A DNA stretch of 64,000 bases from a virus. Shown in pieces: positions 2,457-15,011 of the stretch (its first letter is position 1; every line of letters starts with the position of its first letter). A model generated the notes under the pieces. It was not told where the DNA came from and did not search any database. It saw only the letters and a program-made list of their open reading frames with translations. The position numbers were made by a program, and so were the translations under genes. The stretch is from the IMG/VR virus record IMGVR_UViG_3300021197_001481, positions 1 through 64,000 of that record; one strand, written 5' to 3'.

Positions 2457-2687
2457 TTAGACTGCTTTGCGTCTTGCTCGGGACATGAAGCGTGATCGCA
2501 ATGCCCGGTTTACTACTTGGTTGTAGCGGATGACATAATCAGCAACATCTTTATCATCAATATCATTGATGTCAGGTAATTTTGTTTTTTCTTCCTCAAT
2601 CTCATCAACTTCTTCTTCGATTTCGGGTTGTACAACCTTCTTCGATGCTTCGTTGAGTGATTTGAAAAGATTTTTGTCTAGACGCAT
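2457..2687 (-). CDS. Small charged protein, unrecognised
   Basis: This 76-residue frame fills the only stretch here without a plus-strand gene and converges on the protease gene five bases away. It has AGAGGT before its ATG and a TATACATA octamer 16 bases upstream, which support a real late gene. The middle is acidic (EIEEEVDEIEEEK), the end strongly basic (RSRFMSRARRKAV), giving a bipolar protein. Such small acidic-basic proteins in T4-like phages can be prohead core or DNA-associated, but I cannot assign a function. Confidence 0.6.
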   Translation of the reverse strand: MRLDKNLFKSLNEASKKVVQPEIEEEVDEIEEEKTKLPDINDIDDKDVADYVIRYNQVVNRALRSRFMSRARRKAV

Positions 2688-2703
2688 ATGTTACCTCTGA
2701 TAT

Positions 2704-2711
2704 TATGTATA
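2704..2711 (-). promoter_or_regulatory. Candidate late promoter TATACATA
   Basis: On the minus strand this octamer differs from TATAAATA at one position and lies 16 bases before the ATG of the 76-residue gene. A plus-strand CTACATA lies 15 bases away, so the intergenic region looks like a divergent late promoter pair. Confidence 0.5.
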
Positions 2712-2726
2712 AGAATTTTAAAACTA

Positions 2727-2733
2727 CTACATA
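2727..2733 (+). promoter_or_regulatory. Candidate late promoter CTACATA
   Basis: The heptamer CTACATA lies 50 bases before the ATG at 2784 and opposite a minus-strand TATACATA. The same heptamer precedes the neck, tube and gp3-like genes in this window. The role is inferred from recurrence. Confidence 0.45.
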
Positions 2734-2783
2734 TTGATAACGGTTTTAGGTAAAACCACAAGAAATCTCAAGGAGAATGTTGA

Positions 2784-3059
2784 ATGACTGATCGATCAAA
2801 AGATGCTTTACACAAGAAGTTTGGTATGGCAGCAATTTTAGTAGGGTGGTTTGTGACCATTGCCGCACTTGTATATAATTTTGCAACAACTAATGCAAAT
2901 TATGCACATAGAATTGCAACGATTGAGCAGGAATTACTCAACCTCGACTCACGAATGGATGTGAGTGAGGCATTCAGGATTGAACTTGCTGCTGACTTAG
3001 CAGAAATCAAGACGGATCTACTCTGGATCCGTCGAACAATGGAAGAACAAGGAAGATAA
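2784..3059 (+). CDS. Small membrane protein with coiled coil (XhlA/spanin/holin-like topology)
   Basis: The 91-residue protein has a short basic N-terminus, one transmembrane helix at about residues 15-34, and then a charged heptad-like helix to the end. AAGGAGA lies eight bases before the ATG. This topology is like hemolysin XhlA-type proteins and some phage lysis accessory proteins, but there is no diagnostic motif. No endolysin or holin was recognised in the window, so a lysis role is only one option; a virion membrane-associated protein is another. The next gene starts four bases downstream, so they are probably co-transcribed. Confidence 0.65.
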   Translation: MTDRSKDALHKKFGMAAILVGWFVTIAALVYNFATTNANYAHRIATIEQELLNLDSRMDVSEAFRIELAADLAEIKTDLLWIRRTMEEQGR

Positions 3060-3062
3060 ACT

Positions 3063-5336
3063 ATGTGGTATCCACCCAATAAACAACAAATCGAAAGTAA
3101 CACTAACCCATTCCGTGCTTTGACTCCAGAGCAGATGCGTCTCAAGCACCAACAGGAGATCGCTGAACAAGAGATGCGGAAGGCAGAAGAAGAGGGAAAA
3201 AAGAATCTTGATGAAAAAGTCAAGGTTCCTTCTAAACTGATCAAAGATTTCCAGAAGGAGATCAAGAACGAACGTGATTATCAGTTCGCCGGGACAGACG
3301 ACAAAGAGAACAAAAAGCAAATCATTGAGGATGAGAAAGAACTTCTTAAAGTTTTAAAGTTCTTACAAAAAGGACAAATTGAAAAAGCATATGACGCTTT
3401 CGACGCACTGGATACCGCGTTAGCAGATGTCGTGCCACAAAAACTACTCAAGTTTATGGACCAGAATCTCGATGAAAATACCATTGCACTTCTCGATGAA
3501 ATCGTAAGAGCAAAAGACAAGTACCCTGAAATTGACAAGATCAAAAAGGTCATGAAGAAAAAGGGCATCGGGTTCTACACCGAAAAGGGTAAGATCATGG
3601 TCAACCCCAAGAATGAGATGGAAGCAAAAGAAGCACTTAACAAAGCATTCGGTGGCGACTACGAGAAGAAAACCGGTATGCAGGTCAAGGGTGATAAAAA
3701 GACTTCACTCTCCGCAGAGACAGAACTTGATGAAGGTCTCGGTCGGAACATGCGTATGATAAAGTCGGTCAAGGATAAGTTGACCAAGGCAGGCATCAGA
3801 AGTGCCATCATGTTTGATGAGGTCCATGTCGCTCCCGACAATGTAAAAGAAGCAGAAAAGATTGTTGGTAAGATGCCATTCAAGGTTGTCCCACAAAAGA
3901 AACTCGAAGAGATGTCTGCCAAGGATCACTACAGGAAAGTCATGAGAGGTGGCAAGGGTAAGGGATTCGTGGTTAGCAATCCCATCGACCGTGAACGATA
4001 CCCTAACCGTGAGAAAGAAGGACTCGAAGGACCATACAAGAGTCGCAAGTCTGGTAAGATTTTCTACTACGACAAAAAAGAGGGCAAGTATTACGATCCT
4101 GATTCTGATATGTTCCTTGATGTTTCCGATGTCATGGAGTCAACCGAACTCGATGAAGCAACCTTCCACACTGTTTTTGTCACTGCAAGTAGAACAGCGT
4201 ACAGAAAACTCGAATCATTGATTGCATCCATTGATGGATATAAAGGGGCAGAATTTGATAACGGCAAAGCATCTTTCGTCTTTGATGCAAAGAGTCATGG
4301 TGGTGCAGCACGCAGAAAAGTGGGCGAGTTTATCAAGAAGGTAAGTGGTGCTAAATTCAGTCACGCCATAGCAGAGGACACCGAACTCACTGAAGCATGG
4401 ACCGCAGACAGCGTGAAGAAAAACGCCGACATTGGTTCCGATAGTGGTTACGGTATCAACATCAAGAAGCGTGGGTCGATCACCAAGACTCCATACAAGC
4501 ATATGCTCATGCTACGAACCAGTGCCAAGAAGATCAAGGTCAGATTCGATCATGGTAAGGATGAGTTCGTTGGTTCTCCTGAGCAGGTTGCAGATCACCT
4601 CAACAGAATCCTTGGTATCAAGGAAAACCCAGAGTACGAAAAGGAACTATCAGATATGAACATCGGAGAGATCAACGAAAAGGTCATGCGACCAATGGGA
4701 CTTCCCGGTAAGTTCCCACCCAAGGGTAAGTTTACCAAACAACAGATTGATGCACTTCGTAAGGAGTACGCCAAGATTGGTAGCGTCGATCCCTCGTCCA
4801 AGACCTATGGTAACTTAACAGACTTCCTTGATTCGTTGTCCGATGATATGATCAAGCAACTTTCAACAGCGAAGATTAAGTTTATCTCAGGACTTGCACT
4901 CAACCGTGCAATGAAACGAGGACTCAAGGACTCATACGAGTTTGACTCAAAGACTGGTGAGTACATTCGTGCAGACGGAGAAGATCCACTAGGAATCGAC
5001 GGTGGGTTGCAGAGACAGGTCAAGGAGTCCGTTGAACTAGATGAAGCAGCAGACGAAGTTGCTGCCCGTGAACTGACTCTTTACATCGAAAATGATGCCA
5101 GTCTTTATCGACAAAGAGTTCAACCAATTATTAAGAACCTTGCACGCAAGATGAAGAAGGGAACCTTTGATGCGGAACTCGCAGTAAAGGGATTCATGTA
5201 TGCAGTCGAACATGGTCTTAAGAATTACAAGAAAGACTTTGGTCCCGGATTCAAGATCGACAAGGATACCAAGAAGAAGGTTGCACAAGACCTACTAGAC
5301 AACTTCATGGATGAGATCGAGGACGCAGCAAAATGA
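3063..5336 (+). CDS. Large virion protein with repeated prohead-protease-like sites
   Basis: This 757-residue Lys/Glu-rich protein has no membrane segment. Four short near-identical acidic tags interrupt it: ELDE at 221-224 and 362-365, ELTE at 441-444 and ELDE at 658-661, each preceded by a few acidic or small residues and followed by Gly or Ala. They match the (L/I)xE consensus cut by T4 prohead protease gp21. Cutting there would release five pieces of about 224, 141, 79, 217 and 96 residues. Proteins of this build occur in marine T4-like phages as internal head proteins; I infer that it is packed in the prohead and processed, possibly ejected with DNA. The individual segments were not recognised. 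It starts four bases after the membrane protein gene. Confidence 0.62.
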   Translation: MWYPPNKQQIESNTNPFRALTPEQMRLKHQQEIAEQEMRKAEEEGKKNLDEKVKVPSKLIKDFQKEIKNERDYQFAGTDDKENKKQIIEDEKELLKVLKFLQKGQIEKAYDAFDALDTALADVVPQKLLKFMDQNLDENTIALLDEIVRAKDKYPEIDKIKKVMKKKGIGFYTEKGKIMVNPKNEMEAKEALNKAFGGDYEKKTGMQVKGDKKTSLSAETELDEGLGRNMRMIKSVKDKLTKAGIRSAIMFDEVHVAPDNVKEAEKIVGKMPFKVVPQKKLEEMSAKDHYRKVMRGGKGKGFVVSNPIDRERYPNREKEGLEGPYKSRKSGKIFYYDKKEGKYYDPDSDMFLDVSDVMESTELDEATFHTVFVTASRTAYRKLESLIASIDGYKGAEFDNGKASFVFDAKSHGGAARRKVGEFIKKVSGAKFSHAIAEDTELTEAWTADSVKKNADIGSDSGYGINIKKRGSITKTPYKHMLMLRTSAKKIKVRFDHGKDEFVGSPEQVADHLNRILGIKENPEYEKELSDMNIGEINEKVMRPMGLPGKFPPKGKFTKQQIDALRKEYAKIGSVDPSSKTYGNLTDFLDSLSDDMIKQLSTAKIKFISGLALNRAMKRGLKDSYEFDSKTGEYIRADGEDPLGIDGGLQRQVKESVELDEAADEVAARELTLYIENDASLYRQRVQPIIKNLARKMKKGTFDAELAVKGFMYAVEHGLKNYKKDFGPGFKIDKDTKKKVAQDLLDNFMDEIEDAAK

Positions 5337-6900: not shown

Positions 6901-7566
6901 ATGCATGTGAACAACGATAAAACATTTACTCATGTACCCACTAAACATACTTTTGAAAATCTAAAGTGTGTTACGACCGAGGGCAGCAGACATTACGTCT
7001 GTCCAGATGGAAATAAGTATTTTTCCGTCACCACGGTAACAGGACATAAGAAGAAAGCATTCTTTGCCGAGTGGCGAAGAAAGAACCCAGAGGAGTCCAA
7101 GCGGGTATGCTCGCGTGGAAACAATCTGCACTCCCTTATTGAAGATTATATTAACAACAAGGAACTCAACCCAAAGGGTAACGAGACCATGCTGTTTAGA
7201 CAATCTTTACCTATGCTCAATAAGATTGATAATATTCACGCCCAAGAAGTACCACTCTATAGTAAATTACTTAAACTTGCTGGTCGCGTGGACTGCGTTG
7301 CTGAATTTGATGGTGTTCTATCGATTATCGATTTCAAGGGTTCAACCCGAGAAAAGCGTAGAAGTGATATTGGCAATTACTTTCAACAAGCAACTGCATA
7401 TGCAATTATGTGGAAAGAAATGACTGGTCAGACTATTGAACAGATTGTCATTCTAATTGCAAGCGAAGATGGAAGCACACAAGAGATCGTGGATAACCCG
7501 ATCAATCACGTTGCCTCTCTTCGTCAAACTATTGAAGACTTCCAGAACCTTACAGTCCAGCGGTAA
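6901..7566 (+). CDS. PD-(D/E)XK exonuclease (Cas4/RecB/MGME1-like)
   Basis: The catalytic core reads as LAGRVDCVAEFDG followed by LSIIDFKGS: the D of GRVD and the D...K of IDFKG are the PD-(D/E)XK metal and catalytic residues, and YFQQATAYA supplies the conserved Q-x-x-x-Y helix. An upstream HSLIEDYI helix fits the family as well. At 221 residues it is close to the single-domain size. No four-Cys iron-sulfur cluster of the Cas4 type is evident. The likely job is trimming DNA ends for recombination-dependent replication. The ATG at 6901 abuts the -10 box; GTG 6907, at the expected transcript start, is an alternative giving 219 residues. The 3' end overlaps the convergent Cys-rich gene by 17 bases. 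Confidence 0.78.
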   Translation: MHVNNDKTFTHVPTKHTFENLKCVTTEGSRHYVCPDGNKYFSVTTVTGHKKKAFFAEWRRKNPEESKRVCSRGNNLHSLIEDYINNKELNPKGNETMLFRQSLPMLNKIDNIHAQEVPLYSKLLKLAGRVDCVAEFDGVLSIIDFKGSTREKRRSDIGNYFQQATAYAIMWKEMTGQTIEQIVILIASEDGSTQEIVDNPINHVASLRQTIEDFQNLTVQR

Positions 7567-9817
7567 TTTCTCGTCGTCGTAGGACGGCAGGATTTAATCG
7601 TGAAGTTGCTGGTCGAAGACCCTGATTAACAGTGGTCTTGACTGTTGGTCGATTTACACCCTCAGCATGAAACTTGAGAAGCATTGATGGGTGATTTATA
7701 CTGCGACCTGCGGCAGCAAGTCCTGTACTTTCCGCAAACCAATCAGATGCCTCGATGATGAAGTTCATTTTTCCCTCGTTGTTATGCACGGCATCTCTTG
7801 CGAGTTGTGATAAATCGAAGTAAATTTTGTCACCGGGTTTTACATCGTCACCGACAGTTATTGTTGAACTCGGGGTTAACACGCGGTCAGTTGCATTTCT
7901 ACTTTTTTCTTGGTTCGTCCATCCCCTCGCAGCACCAGTGTTTGGATTAACTCCCCAGTATGTACAGTCAGCAATCGAATTATCGATAGTTTTCTTTGAT
8001 TTATACACACTAAGTTTTAGTGGGTGAACAAATGGTGCTGATCCGGTAAAGGCAACTCTACCAAAGACATCAGCAACGGTGAGTTCTAGAACACAAGACA
8101 TTACTGTGTCTCTTGGTCCAATTGCAGATTGGTTGACGGCATTTCCTGAAAATGCCTGTCCACTTTCGGTGGTAAGACCAGCATTCAGATCGTGGTTAAT
8201 GAAAAGCATCGGAACTAAATCATGATCCTTGTAATTACCACGGAGTGAATCAACTTCACCTGATTTGAGTATTACTTCTTGATTGGGAATACAGTCGTCA
8301 CACCATGTACAACCGGCGACTCCTGTATCATCAAATTCACAACATTCATTTTGACCCTTATCACATTCAGGTCCACCACATACACCGCATACTAGTGGTT
8401 CGCATTCACCTTCACAACCGGGCGAGTCGCATCCGTTTTCACAGATAATCTCTCCTGTACATTCTCCACCACAACCTCCACCACAAGGTTTGTCTCCTGT
8501 ACATACTATTGGACCGGGTTCCCCACATCCACATCCGGGATCTTCTTCACAGGCATTGTCGGGTGGACAACCTCCACCACAAGGTGTGTCTCCTGAACAA
8601 ACCACTGGTGGAGGACCATTACAGACACCACAATTACAGACACCACATCCGTCAGCGACTCCACAACAAGATTGACCGCCTGACCCACATGTCGGACATT
8701 CACAACATGGATTATCGCTTCCACAACATGGATCACCACTGTCGATGGGTTCGCATGAAAAATCGGGTGGTTGGCAAGGATTCGTGGACGGGGTTAGCGT
8801 GCATATTTCACAATTGGGATCGCAAGGTCGCTCCTTGCAAGGATCAATTTGATGATCTTCGCAACAGGAGAATCCACCAGCAGGATCGCAAGCGAAGCAA
8901 CTACATTCACAATCATTGCACTCAATACCCTGTGCCGTGGGACAAGGACCGGTTTCGCAAATGTTCGCACAACATTCTTCACAATTACAACCCACCCCCG
9001 ATGATCTCTGCTCTGGTATTTCTCCGGTGCTAGGGTCAATGAAACGAGGAAGACCATTTGCATACTGTGTTGCTCGACCAAGAAGATCTGAAGTTCGATC
9101 TATAACTAAGTTTGATATATTGGAATTATTACGATCCTGAGCGTGTATGTTTGTGGGATCATACCGGGGATCATTTTTTACCTCGATAGGTCCAGTGTCT
9201 TCAGCGACCTCGATAGTTCTGTTATCATGAGAGAAAGCAACTCCACCTGAATCTTCGTTAGTTTTAACACCATCGATACGAAAACTATTTTTACCCATAG
9301 ACATCGCAGGGGTTGATCCCATTATTTTTTTTACTTCATCATATGAGGCGGTCGGCATAGGTTCATGAACCTGCATACCTTTTCTATAACGAGCATATTC
9401 TAGATTACCAGAAATGTTTATGACAGGAGAGTGGTTTTTACCAGCATCATTATGATCGTTTCTGTTTTCTGAAAATATTTGAGTATGGGAGGGGACTAGT
9501 AGATTAATTGCACCAAGACCGAAAAAACTGTCCGTGACATTGCCGCCATTTGTCTGGTTCAACGCAGCACGGGATGTCATCAGTCTGACATCTGCTGCAC
9601 TTTTTGTATTATCCTCTGCACCTACACCAAGTCCGTCAAGAATATCATCGCAACAGTCTGATCCATCAGGAGAAGTACCGGGATGGTCACATGTCGGACC
9701 TTCTGGACAGTTTCCATGCAAACATGGATTTAGGTAAAATGGGATGTCTTGCTTAAGACGTACTAATCGCCCTACACCTAAATGTCTACCTGCTGTTACG
9801 CGATGTCTTGCTGCCAT
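7550..9817 (-). CDS. Cysteine-rich structural protein
   Basis: The 755-residue protein has three parts. Residues 1-274 are a polar region with a short Cys cluster near 32-56. Residues about 275-515 contain about 53 Cys in about 240 positions, with Gly, Pro and Asp between, and a repeated unit (VVCSGDTPCGGGC and IVCTGDKPCGGGC). Residues 516-755 are a beta-rich C-terminal domain with the look of a DNRLRE-type jelly roll (FVHPLKLSVYKSKK, then IYFDLSQLARDAV, then MNFIIEASDW). There is no signal peptide. The Cys region could be disulfide-linked in the mature virion or bind metal. A fibre or decoration attached to head or tail is plausible. It converges on the exonuclease gene and follows the other minus-strand beta-rich gene by three bases. 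Confidence 0.65.
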   Translation of the reverse strand: MAARHRVTAGRHLGVGRLVRLKQDIPFYLNPCLHGNCPEGPTCDHPGTSPDGSDCCDDILDGLGVGAEDNTKSAADVRLMTSRAALNQTNGGNVTDSFFGLGAINLLVPSHTQIFSENRNDHNDAGKNHSPVINISGNLEYARYRKGMQVHEPMPTASYDEVKKIMGSTPAMSMGKNSFRIDGVKTNEDSGGVAFSHDNRTIEVAEDTGPIEVKNDPRYDPTNIHAQDRNNSNISNLVIDRTSDLLGRATQYANGLPRFIDPSTGEIPEQRSSGVGCNCEECCANICETGPCPTAQGIECNDCECSCFACDPAGGFSCCEDHQIDPCKERPCDPNCEICTLTPSTNPCQPPDFSCEPIDSGDPCCGSDNPCCECPTCGSGGQSCCGVADGCGVCNCGVCNGPPPVVCSGDTPCGGGCPPDNACEEDPGCGCGEPGPIVCTGDKPCGGGCGGECTGEIICENGCDSPGCEGECEPLVCGVCGGPECDKGQNECCEFDDTGVAGCTWCDDCIPNQEVILKSGEVDSLRGNYKDHDLVPMLFINHDLNAGLTTESGQAFSGNAVNQSAIGPRDTVMSCVLELTVADVFGRVAFTGSAPFVHPLKLSVYKSKKTIDNSIADCTYWGVNPNTGAARGWTNQEKSRNATDRVLTPSSTITVGDDVKPGDKIYFDLSQLARDAVHNNEGKMNFIIEASDWFAESTGLAAAGRSINHPSMLLKFHAEGVNRPTVKTTVNQGLRPATSRLNPAVLRRREITAGL

Positions 9818-11951: not shown

Positions 11952-11975
11952 CCCCGGAGCAATCCGGGGTTTTTT
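11952..11975. terminator. Bidirectional intrinsic terminator between gp32 and the tape measure gene
   Basis: CCCCGGA (11952-11958), loop GCAA, TCCGGGG (11963-11969), then six T on the plus strand. Four A precede the stem (11948-11951), so the minus-strand transcript has TTTT after the same hairpin. It ends gp32 transcription and lies directly past the stop of the convergent tape measure gene. Confidence 0.9.
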
Positions 11976-13576
11976 CATGCGCCGACATATCTTGCTGCAT
12001 CAATGTCAGTTGCTGGTTCTTCCGATGTCTCGAATGATTGTGTATTCATTGCAGTAGTGTTAACTTGGTTAACAGTTCCTCCTGCGGCAGAACCCTGTTG
12101 TGCTTGTAATCTTGCTGCGTCTGCCGATGCATTCGCTTGTTGGAATTTTGCATAGTCTCTGGCAATTCTTCTCTCATCTGCTTCTGCTGCTTCCAATCCT
12201 TCGCCACCGCTTAGACCAAATGTTGCTTTATTGATTGCATACGAGATACCATAATCCATTTTATTCTTGAGAACTTTAAACGAGAACATAAGTTCTTGGA
12301 AGAATCTCTTAATAGAATCAATTGGTCCTTGAACGAAAGAAGAAAGAACTGCAAATCCACTTGTAATAAATCCAAGAACACTGTTGAATGCATTTGGAAT
12401 TGTTACGGTAAAGAAGTTACCAATTGCATTAATTCCACTCATGAATAGGTTTGGCACTGTGACTGTGTAGAAATCGAAGACCATAATAAAGAAATCTTTA
12501 ATCCCATTTACCGCCGACATGAATATTTCTGGTATGGTTTCTGTAAAGAAAAGAAACGCTTCATAGAAGAAATCTCCCATCTTGGTGGTGAGGTTGTCGA
12601 AGAATTCCAAGACACTATCGAATGATATGAATCCGAAAGAAAGTCCTTCGATGATCTGTGCGAATATACCTTGAATACCGCCGATCAGTTTCTCAAAGAA
12701 TGTTCCCTCAGTTCCAAAGAAACCACGGAAGAATCCGACCACGCCTTCGACGATGGTGATAATCTGTCCGAGGATAGGGACTGCTTTGAACACTTTCCCG
12801 AGAACTCCTCCAAGTTTACCAACAAAACCAACAACAGGTTTTACAAAACCAAATATGGTTTTAAATACTCTACCAATTGTAGCAAAAATTCCACCTGCGG
12901 TTTTTCCTACTGTACCAACCACTCCAAATATTTTACTAAAGATACCCATCACTGGTTTAAATCTGCCGAATATCTTCCCCAAGAAAGTGAATACTGGTTT
13001 TATCTTATTGAATACTTTACCAAAGAAACCAAACAATTTAGACTTACCCATACTTTTACCAAGGGCACCGAAGACTGATTTAAATGATTTTATGATCGAT
13101 CCGACAATTTTGCCCTCTTTGATTCGAGTAAATACATTACTGATTCCTTTGACTATATTCTTGCGAACATTAAACAGAGCGGGCAACCCTTTGAGTATTC
13201 CCTTTATGGTGCCAATTGCTCCAGAAAGGACAGCGGAATATTGATAAACTACTGCACCCGCAAGAAGGAATGGGAGTTTCAGCGTATCAAATACGGTGAG
13301 TTCTCTCATATTGAAACCTTTACTGAGGGTGTCACCGAGTTTTTCTAGTCCACCTAAGATAGAATTACTAAGTCCAGCGAATATTTGTCTTTGCTTAGAT
13401 GCTGCTTCTTGCTGTGCTTCTTTACCGCTAATTTCAGCACCACCGGCGATCTGGATCGCCTTAACGATTCGATCAGTGTTCTTTTCGTCAGCAGTACGTT
13501 GACCATCCAAAAGACCCTTAAGTCCTTCGTTTGGTTTTGTAAAACGTCCTTTATCGTCGCGGGGTGGTAGTGCCAT
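11975..13576 (-). CDS. gp29: Tail tape measure protein (gp29-like position)
   Basis: The 533-residue protein starts with a polar, basic N-terminus (MALPPRDDKGRFTKPNEG). A long central part consists of repeated Gly/Phe/Lys amphipathic and hydrophobic helices (FGKVFNKIKPVFTFLGKIFG and similar, about 150-440), as in tape measure proteins, and the Ala/Gln-rich C-terminus is polar. It directly follows the frameshifted gp26-like gene (stop and start overlap as TAATG), the usual place for a tape measure behind its chaperone. By the known rule of about 1.5 angstrom per residue the tail would be short, roughly 80 nm. In T4 this role is held by gp29 (590 residues). The stop codon overlaps the bidirectional terminator. 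Confidence 0.75.
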   Translation of the reverse strand: MALPPRDDKGRFTKPNEGLKGLLDGQRTADEKNTDRIVKAIQIAGGAEISGKEAQQEAASKQRQIFAGLSNSILGGLEKLGDTLSKGFNMRELTVFDTLKLPFLLAGAVVYQYSAVLSGAIGTIKGILKGLPALFNVRKNIVKGISNVFTRIKEGKIVGSIIKSFKSVFGALGKSMGKSKLFGFFGKVFNKIKPVFTFLGKIFGRFKPVMGIFSKIFGVVGTVGKTAGGIFATIGRVFKTIFGFVKPVVGFVGKLGGVLGKVFKAVPILGQIITIVEGVVGFFRGFFGTEGTFFEKLIGGIQGIFAQIIEGLSFGFISFDSVLEFFDNLTTKMGDFFYEAFLFFTETIPEIFMSAVNGIKDFFIMVFDFYTVTVPNLFMSGINAIGNFFTVTIPNAFNSVLGFITSGFAVLSSFVQGPIDSIKRFFQELMFSFKVLKNKMDYGISYAINKATFGLSGGEGLEAAEADERRIARDYAKFQQANASADAARLQAQQGSAAGGTVNQVNTTAMNTQSFETSEEPATDIDAARYVGA

Positions 13577-13755
13577 TATTGTTTCTTATATGCCTCTTGT
13601 TGCTTTTCTAAATGTTCATGGAGAAGTGCGGTATAAATCTGTCTTTCCCACGGGATCATATTCTCAAGTTCCGTTAAACTATATTTATGCTCCTGCATCA
13701 TTAAAAAATTAACACGATAATGGTACTCTAATGTATCGTGAGCGAGGCATATCAG
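13576..13755 (-). CDS. -1 frameshift extension of the gp26-like gene (tail assembly chaperone C-terminus)
   Basis: In the -1 frame, reading goes on past the gp26-like stop for 59 sense codons, beginning LICLAHDTLEYHYRVNFLM and containing YSLTELENMIPWERQIY, and ends at a TAA that shares its A with the ATG of the tape measure gene. The 38-codon ATG-started frame inside it lacks an obvious ribosome site, so fusion to the upstream protein (229 + 59 = 288 residues) is the better explanation. Phage tail assembly chaperones of the lambda G/GT type are made exactly this way and sit just before the tape measure gene. PWER-containing tails occur in such extensions. The frame is seen directly; its translation is inferred. 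Confidence 0.75.
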   Translation of the reverse strand: MICLAHDTLEYHYRVNFLMMQEHKYSLTELENMIPWERQIYTALLHEHLEKQQEAYKKQ

Positions 13756-14441
13756 AAAAAATCAGAGATTCCCTCTAGTACCACCTTATTCTCATGACCA
13801 CAAGAAGTACACTTATATGTAGTTTCATATCTTAGTTTGGGCATAGACTCAAAGAAACTTTGAATTTTTTCAACTTCTTTCATACTAAGTGAGTCAACAA
13901 ACTCCTTCACTTCGTTCTTGTCGTAATCACTGACCTTGTGTACAGTAGTAGAATCATAAATCGATTCTATACAACTAATCAACACATCAACGGGATCGTT
14001 TGTATCGGTCTTAGTTAGGGTTCCCATAGAAGGGTGTCTCAAAATAACACCAACATCAGATGTCAATGCTACTTTAGGATCGACTTCCTCGCCACGGACT
14101 AGTTTAATATCTTTTTCTAGATTAATCACGGTTGGGTGCGTTTCACCACACTCCTCGCATTTAAGAAGAATCTCAACTTCCTCTCCAATCGACTTAGATC
14201 TCAACATCAAAAAGATGTATTCAACATCATACGATGTTAAATCTTCTACGACGATATCATCTTCTACACATACGCTGATCAACTTTTTAAGAGAATCAAA
14301 CGCTTGTTGTGAACTGTTGCCTTCTTTTGCCATGAGCAAAAGTTTTTCTTCTTTCACCAAGAAGGGTCTGTAACTAATAGTCTTTCCTGTCGAGGGAAGT
14401 TTTAGTGTATATGTGGGTGTCTCTAACTTTGGTAATGCCAT
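13752..14441 (-). CDS. gp26: gp26-like baseplate hub / tail assembly chaperone, zero-frame product
   Basis: The 229-residue protein begins MALPKLETPTYTLKLPSTG and continues YRPFLVKEEKLLLMAKE, the hallmark of the T4 gp26 baseplate family (PF12322). Two Cys pairs (CEECG near 108-111 and CTSCGH near 211-214) could form one zinc site. T4 gp26 has 208 residues and is listed as a hub subunit. Its place before the tape measure, and the -1 extension, argue that in this phage it acts as the tape measure chaperone. It lies 21 bases after the tube-family gene in the minus-strand operon. Confidence 0.8.
   Translation of the reverse strand: MALPKLETPTYTLKLPSTGKTISYRPFLVKEEKLLLMAKEGNSSQQAFDSLKKLISVCVEDDIVVEDLTSYDVEYIFLMLRSKSIGEEVEILLKCEECGETHPTVINLEKDIKLVRGEEVDPKVALTSDVGVILRHPSMGTLTKTDTNDPVDVLISCIESIYDSTTVHKVSDYDKNEVKEFVDSLSMKEVEKIQSFFESMPKLRYETTYKCTSCGHENKVVLEGISDFF
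13755..13761 (-). promoter_or_regulatory. Programmed -1 frameshift site T TTT TTC
   Basis: The minus strand reads GAT TTT TTC TGA at the end of the gp26-like gene; T TTT TTC is a canonical X XXY YYZ slippery heptamer, and the zero-frame stop follows at once. A Shine-Dalgarno-like GAGGG (13771-13775) lies nine bases upstream, the spacing known to stimulate -1 shifting in E. coli dnaX. After slipping, both tRNAs still read Phe codons. Confidence 0.78.
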
Positions 14442-14462: not shown

Positions 14463-15011
14463 TTATAGATTGCTTGTCCAGCGTCTGAAGGAAAAATCAA
14501 TGTCTGTTTTGACGAGAGCATCTCCTCCTGCACCAGATAATTCAACTGCGTTCACTGTCTTTGGAAATAAATCAAAAACACGAACCTTATAAACTTCTTT
14601 ATTTTTTAAATCTGTCATTGTTATATCTAGCGAGTTACAGATATATTCATCATAGTAACCACATTGAAAAGTTTCCTCATCAATGATCGCTCTTTGCCAC
14701 GCCTCGAATGCTTTTCTGACATTGAAGGTAGAATCCTCCAAGAAAACCATTTTAAGGTCTCCTTCATACACTCTCCCATAAGGCATTTCCCTATCAATAC
14801 CTTGCAGTTTAACAGGATTGGATCCAATTGCACTTCCGGGAAGTGATACAGATTCAAGTCTGGCATTTAGTTTTTCACTGGTTCCACGATCAAATAACTG
14901 CGTCCCTGTTCGGGTCGATGAAAATAATATCTCATAGCGATGTGGGTATGCGACACCCGACTTTCCTATTTCCGATACAAACTTATTGACGTTGAAACCA
15001 AACATACTCAT
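14463..15011 (-). CDS. Tail-tube-family baseplate protein (gp54-like position)
   Basis: This 182-residue protein has the layout of the T4 gp19 tube family: a hydrophobic start (FGFNVNKFVSEIGKSGVAYPHRYEILF), a LESVSLPGSAIGSNPV segment like the LPASEIG segment of gp19 here, then LKMVFLEDSTFNVRKAFEAWQ, matching ITLLVDGEFSTRNAFERWM of gp19. In T4, gp54 and gp48 share this fold and start the tube on the baseplate. gp48 is present separately at 16235, so this is best read as the tube initiator. The ATG overlaps the stop of the 54-residue gene (ATGA). Confidence 0.65.
   Translation of the reverse strand: MSMFGFNVNKFVSEIGKSGVAYPHRYEILFSSTRTGTQLFDRGTSEKLNARLESVSLPGSAIGSNPVKLQGIDREMPYGRVYEGDLKMVFLEDSTFNVRKAFEAWQRAIIDEETFQCGYYDEYICNSLDITMTDLKNKEVYKVRVFDLFPKTVNAVELSGAGGDALVKTDIDFSFRRWTSNL

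Follow-up and report, generated by a model that had tools for sequence, protein, structure and literature searches.

Here we present a tail gene of a T4-superfamily virus that very probably encodes a tail assembly chaperone of the lambda G/GT type, the long form of which would be produced by -1 translational frameshifting. A frameshift of this design had been proposed in the initial annotation of the DNA, and it is strongly supported by conservation of the slippery site, codon constraint on the shifted frame and the absence of another start, as well as by family matches and synteny. From sequence, conservation, coding constraint, homology and synteny we infer that slippage occurs, the rate at which it does so and the chaperone role of the products. 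The chaperone idea had been put forward as new; however, according to the papers that cite their study (PMC10885494, PMC12846349), Vladimirov, Gautam and Davidson (Virology 2022, 566:9-15) had already identified the tail assembly chaperone genes of T4-like phages. Since the general idea is already published, this analysis is a confirmation and an extension, not a discovery, and the locus is a well-supported new instance of an already known system.

Genomic context and the proposed frameshift site

The window, that is, the whole stretch of 64,000 nucleotides analysed here, comes from an IMG/VR virus record of 86,816 bases and carries hallmarks of the T4 superfamily, among them a gp23 capsid, a gp20 portal, a sheath, UvsW and a gp32-type single-strand DNA binding protein. 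The locus lies on the minus strand, on which the tail tube gene, the gp26-like putative chaperone gene, its extension and the tape measure gene follow one another in that order. The upstream neighbour encodes the tail tube protein (14463-15011; phrog_45 tail tube, E 5.4e-32). The gp26-like gene itself (13752-14441), identified through PF12322, phrog_150 and an AlphaFold2 model, encodes the short isoform of 229 residues (TAC-N). It is followed by a -1 frame extension of 59 codons (13579-13755), which constitutes the 'gp51' domain and would form the C-terminal part of a 288-residue long isoform, and then by the gene for a tape measure protein of 533 residues (11975-13576; matches to phrog_58, E 6.5e-14, and to further phrogs for tape measure proteins). 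Across the entire 86.8-kb record, gp26-type and gp51-type matches occur only once each.

At its 3' end the gp26-like gene reads GAT TTT TTC TGA, so that the slippery heptamer T_TTT_TTC (13755-13761) stands directly before the frame-0 stop TGA (13752-13754). This ending, the canonical heptamer and the stop as the very next codon had all been described in the initial annotation and are seen at 13761-13752, as is the GAGGG noted nine bases upstream (13771-13775), a Shine-Dalgarno (SD)-like motif and possible stimulator separated from the heptamer by a 9-nt spacer. Upstream, the -1 frame is shut by a stop of its own, TGA at 13764-13762, and it is open only from 13761; because of this closure, the overlap between the 0 and -1 frames is just 10 nt, exactly T_TTT_TTC plus TGA. 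After the slip, the -1 frame would be translated for 59 codons as LICLAHDTLEYHYRVNFLMMQEHKYSLTELENMIPWERQIYTALLHEHLEKQQEAYKKQ, ending at a TAA (13576-13578) that shares its final A with the start codon ATG of the tape measure gene, an overlap that likewise agrees with the earlier description. With an extension of 59 codons, the shifted product would therefore have 229 + 59 = 288 residues, the length originally predicted. In a scan of the 301 stop-to-stop ORFs of at least 60 codons in the window, the gp26-like ORF was the only one to combine a slippery heptamer no more than 12 nt from its stop and a -1 extension exceeding 10 codons.

Identity and probable function of the two products

The gp26-like protein matches PF12322 (positions 2-218/219, E 1e-64) and phrog_150 'baseplate hub' (E 4e-68), and it is homologous to T4 gp26 throughout (hhalign E 1.5e-19). 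The AlphaFold2 model is confident (pLDDT 92.5), and its matches among viral structures are mostly proteins of the gp26 family. A fold search of the PDB with this model returned nothing significant; the tail assembly chaperone of HK97 (gp13, with the TAC-N fold; 2ob9) appeared weakly among the hits (E 1.5, probability 0.57, 62 aligned residues), and the PDB sequence relatives were at chance level only. Two CxxC pairs were also observed, at about residues 94-100 (KCEECGE) and 209-216 (KCTSCGH); they are shared with T4 gp26 and in part with gp51, they are a point of difference from lambda G/GT, and they probably form a zinc site split across gp26.

The extension matches phrog_634 'baseplate hub assembly catalyst', the 'gp51' family (E 3.5e-22), and a Pfam scan with it gave no real family. 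Alignment with the C-termini of gp26 homologues, which had been suggested as a check on the frameshift, placed the extension on the C-terminal part of phrog_150 (positions 236-280, 1.7e-6) and, by hhalign, on residues 207-244 of T4 gp51 (E 4.5e-5); hhalign against T4 gp26 gave no alignment (E 0.95).

In the mechanism that we propose, most ribosomes would halt at the TGA and release the 229-residue short form (gp26, comparable to lambda gpG). A fraction would slip back one base on T_TTT_TTC, perhaps aided by the GAGGG 9 nt upstream, and would yield the 288-residue long form (comparable to lambda gpGT), the last 59 residues of which would be the 'gp51' domain. By analogy with lambda, the tape measure protein would be coated by the short form while the tail is built, and the role of the long form would be to connect the coated protein with the tail tube subunit. 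The T4 equivalents would then be gene 26 for the short form and gene 51, a short-type domain fused to the tail, for the long form.

The proposed likeness to lambda G/GT rests on gene order and on the frameshift layout. In lambda, as in the window, the gene lies between those for the tail tube and the tape measure, the order V-G-T-H being the one seen here, and a short form is accompanied by a -1 frameshifted long form that arises near the 3' end. The two systems differ in their slippery sites, G_GGA_AAG in lambda and T_TTT_TTC in the window, and in the length of the extension, which at 59 residues is shorter than the T part of lambda. The conserved translational frameshift of the lambda G/GT tail assembly chaperones was reportedly described by Xu, Hendrix and Duda in 2004.

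That gp26 relatives are tape measure chaperones, as first suggested for this DNA, is a probable reading, backed by the analogy and by earlier publications. It competes with the view that the role of gp26 is chiefly structural, as a protein of the hub, the long form being a minor structural variant with no part as a tape-measure chaperone. This view accords with the historical annotation of gp26 as a 'baseplate hub subunit' and with genetics cited in a T4 review that place gp26 in the hub (PMC3004832). However, Table 2 of the same review classes gp26, like gp51, as a hub assembly chaperone, and gp51 is reported there to be absent from the T4 particle (PMC3004832); furthermore, the gene order and the frameshift are those known from chaperone loci in other tailed phages, and the T4-like chaperone genes are attributed to Vladimirov et al. 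(2022) in the papers that cite them (PMC10885494, PMC12846349). We consider a mainly structural role very unlikely.

Conservation of the slippery site

Conservation was assessed in 88 sequences, 78 of them distinct, comprising the window, 80 IMG/VR relatives with gp26 proteins 37-46% identical to that of the window, and seven isolate genomes. In 88/88 sequences T_TTT_TTN stands 0-9 nt ahead of the frame-0 stop, which answers the question of conservation raised with the initial annotation, and a -1 extension with protein-level selection is present across all 88. The heptamer is mostly TTTTTTC or TTTTTTT, with TTTTTTA in two, and the T_TTT_TTN site extends to the rhizobiophages phiM19 and Atu_ph04, to Vibrio D483 and to Xanthomonas X1.

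The first Phe codon of the site is TTT in all 78 distinct sequences, as against a TTT share of 66% among the Phe codons of the gene bodies, and the base before it is T in 78/78 compared with an expected number of about 44 (log10 P of -14 and -20, respectively, both naive values uncorrected for phylogeny). Among Phe-Phe pairs elsewhere in the gp26-like genes, just 6 of 62 are encoded as TTT-TTC. The +1 frame is shut soon after the stop, within 28 codons, in nearly all relatives.

Two further arrangements were encountered. The Ackermannviridae Vi01, PP35 and Ea2809 (about 3260-3470) and Vibrio D508 (about 3180-3390) have -1 extensions with PWH or similar motifs at a non-canonical site consisting of ATT or CTT, then TTC; judged from the sequence, these ATT_TTC and CTT_TTC sites possibly support a non-canonical frameshift. 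In Stenotrophomonas phage IME-SM1, there is no simple -1 extension at the annotated gp26 end. Its gp26 (2501-3343) continues in frame into a tail that looks unrelated, and a different frame holds a PFE-type motif, a layout that may reflect a frame error or another arrangement.

Coding of the extension

Single-base differences between the extensions amount to 1041 synonymous versus 422 nonsynonymous when scored in the -1 frame; scoring in the two remaining frames gives 253:1412 and 97:1557. In the stretch ahead of the first Met of the window extension, the -1 frame has 2088 synonymous versus 775 nonsynonymous differences; the region before the first Met is equally constrained in this frame and therefore must be translated.

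This bears on an alternative in which gp51 would be an independent small product: ribosomes would start at an internal ATG, by reinitiation or coupling once gp26 has been terminated. GenBank does annotate gp51 separately, as a protein of 43 residues in Syn1 and in like manner in S-P4, phiM19 and D483, and codons 19-20 of the window extension are ATG ATG. Nevertheless, the 18 codons that precede the first ATG are under protein selection in the -1 frame. Moreover, the position of the first ATG varies anywhere from codon 1 to codon 55 among the relatives, no ATG, GTG or TTG occurs within the first 15 extension codons in 29 of 76, and a start within the first 32 codons is accompanied by an SD-like motif in only 3 of 76. 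Taken together, these observations exclude translation from a start of its own as the mechanism in general, and an independent start for the extension, which in relatives lacking the heptamer had been named as fatal to the frameshift, was rejected on this survey of 76. A separate start would also leave the invariant heptamer unexplained, and it stands against the continuous fusion seen in T4 gp51; we give it little credence. An ORF lies downstream of the extension in 73/76 relatives, and it commonly overlaps the extension stop.

The idea that the T run holds a sequencing or assembly error, the true gene being one continuous fusion, draws on the proneness of homopolymer runs to errors and on the existence of fused forms such as T4 gp51, but it is refuted for the family and almost certainly wrong here, because the T run varies in length (6, 7 or 8 T, with C, T or A at the seventh base) in independent assemblies and yet the shift is -1 in every case, as it is in isolate genomes such as Syn1, S-P4, MA10 and phiM19, the heptamer being present in 88/88.

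Stimulatory signals

An SD-like motif upstream of the heptamer was found in 57 of the 78 distinct sequences, compared with a mean of 38 and a maximum of 50 under a null obtained by synonymous resampling of codons. GAGGG at the exact 9-nt spacing was present in 39/78. Where Glu-Gly occurs near the gene end, Glu is encoded by GAG in 38/59 cases, whereas its general share is 27% (P 3e-9, a value that takes no account of shared ancestry). As for RNA structure downstream of the site in the window, none of three folds beat its shuffles.

Relationship to T4 genes 26 and 51

T4 gp51 has been called an essential protein of unknown function (PMC3004832). We found that this protein of 249 residues consists of a PF12322 domain (residues 1-201) with phrog_634 at its C-terminus, and that T4 gp26 (208 residues) has PF12322 only, the tail being absent. 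T4 gp51 is thus a gp26-type domain plus the tail and T4 gp26 is tailless, so that the one putatively frameshifting gene of the window corresponds to two T4 genes. In T4, genes 26 and 51 are separate and divergent, and gene 26 ends GAG TTC TTT GAG, a sequence that, unlike the end of the window gene, has no slippery run. Phage 44RR has the same two-gene layout as T4, and gp51-type long genes are found across T4-type phages. According to Vladimirov et al. (2022), as related in PMC10885494, some T4-like phages have a short gene and a long fused gene in place of frameshifting.

The gp26/gp51 loci of cyanophages (Kyanoviridae), e.g. Syn1, S-P4 and MA10, share the heptamer, the -1 extension and the gene order with the window, but their records show gp26 alone or two separate genes. 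Six public records give gp51 as an independent small ORF, as 'hypothetical' or not at all, even though it represents the continuation of gp26 in the -1 frame. A joined gp26-gp51 product is annotated in none of the public records that we examined. Poly-T slippery sites in T4-like chaperone genes are credited to Vladimirov et al. (2022) by PMC12846349. A similar frameshift is described for the tail assembly chaperone genes of Vandenendeviridae and Andersonviridae, in which, as here, the short chaperone gene ends in a poly-T slippery site and precedes the tape measure; these belong to a different phage group and have a GTTTTT motif (PMC12846349).

These comparisons can be joined in a single reading, the case for which we regard as evenly balanced: the frameshifting gene would be ancestral in the T4 superfamily; T4 gp51, the essential 'hub assembly catalyst', would be a hard-wired duplicate of the frameshift product, and so would bridge the tape measure (gp29) and the tail tube; and the Ackermannviridae (Vi01, PP35, Ea2809) would use ATT_TTC_ATT_TAA for the same -1 extension. 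Through this locus gp51, a T4 assembly factor that is little understood, is tied to the frameshift that is best known among phages. The phage strategy is known, but in public records it is usually mistaken for one ordinary gene or two; the T4-like records examined show gp26 alone or two independent genes, and annotation pipelines should join the two. The contrast between frameshifting and two-gene phages also provides a natural test of how the ratio of short to long form is set.

Other features of the window

Elsewhere in the window, the minus strand encodes a protein of 755 residues (7550-9817) with a central Cys-rich region of repeated C-x-x-C and CG motifs, for which Pfam and PHROG searches returned no match. 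Additionally, two adjacent plus-strand genes (302-1372 and 1423-2451) encode proteins with dockerin type I / EF-hand matches, cellulosome-like or calcium-binding modules that are unusual for a phage.
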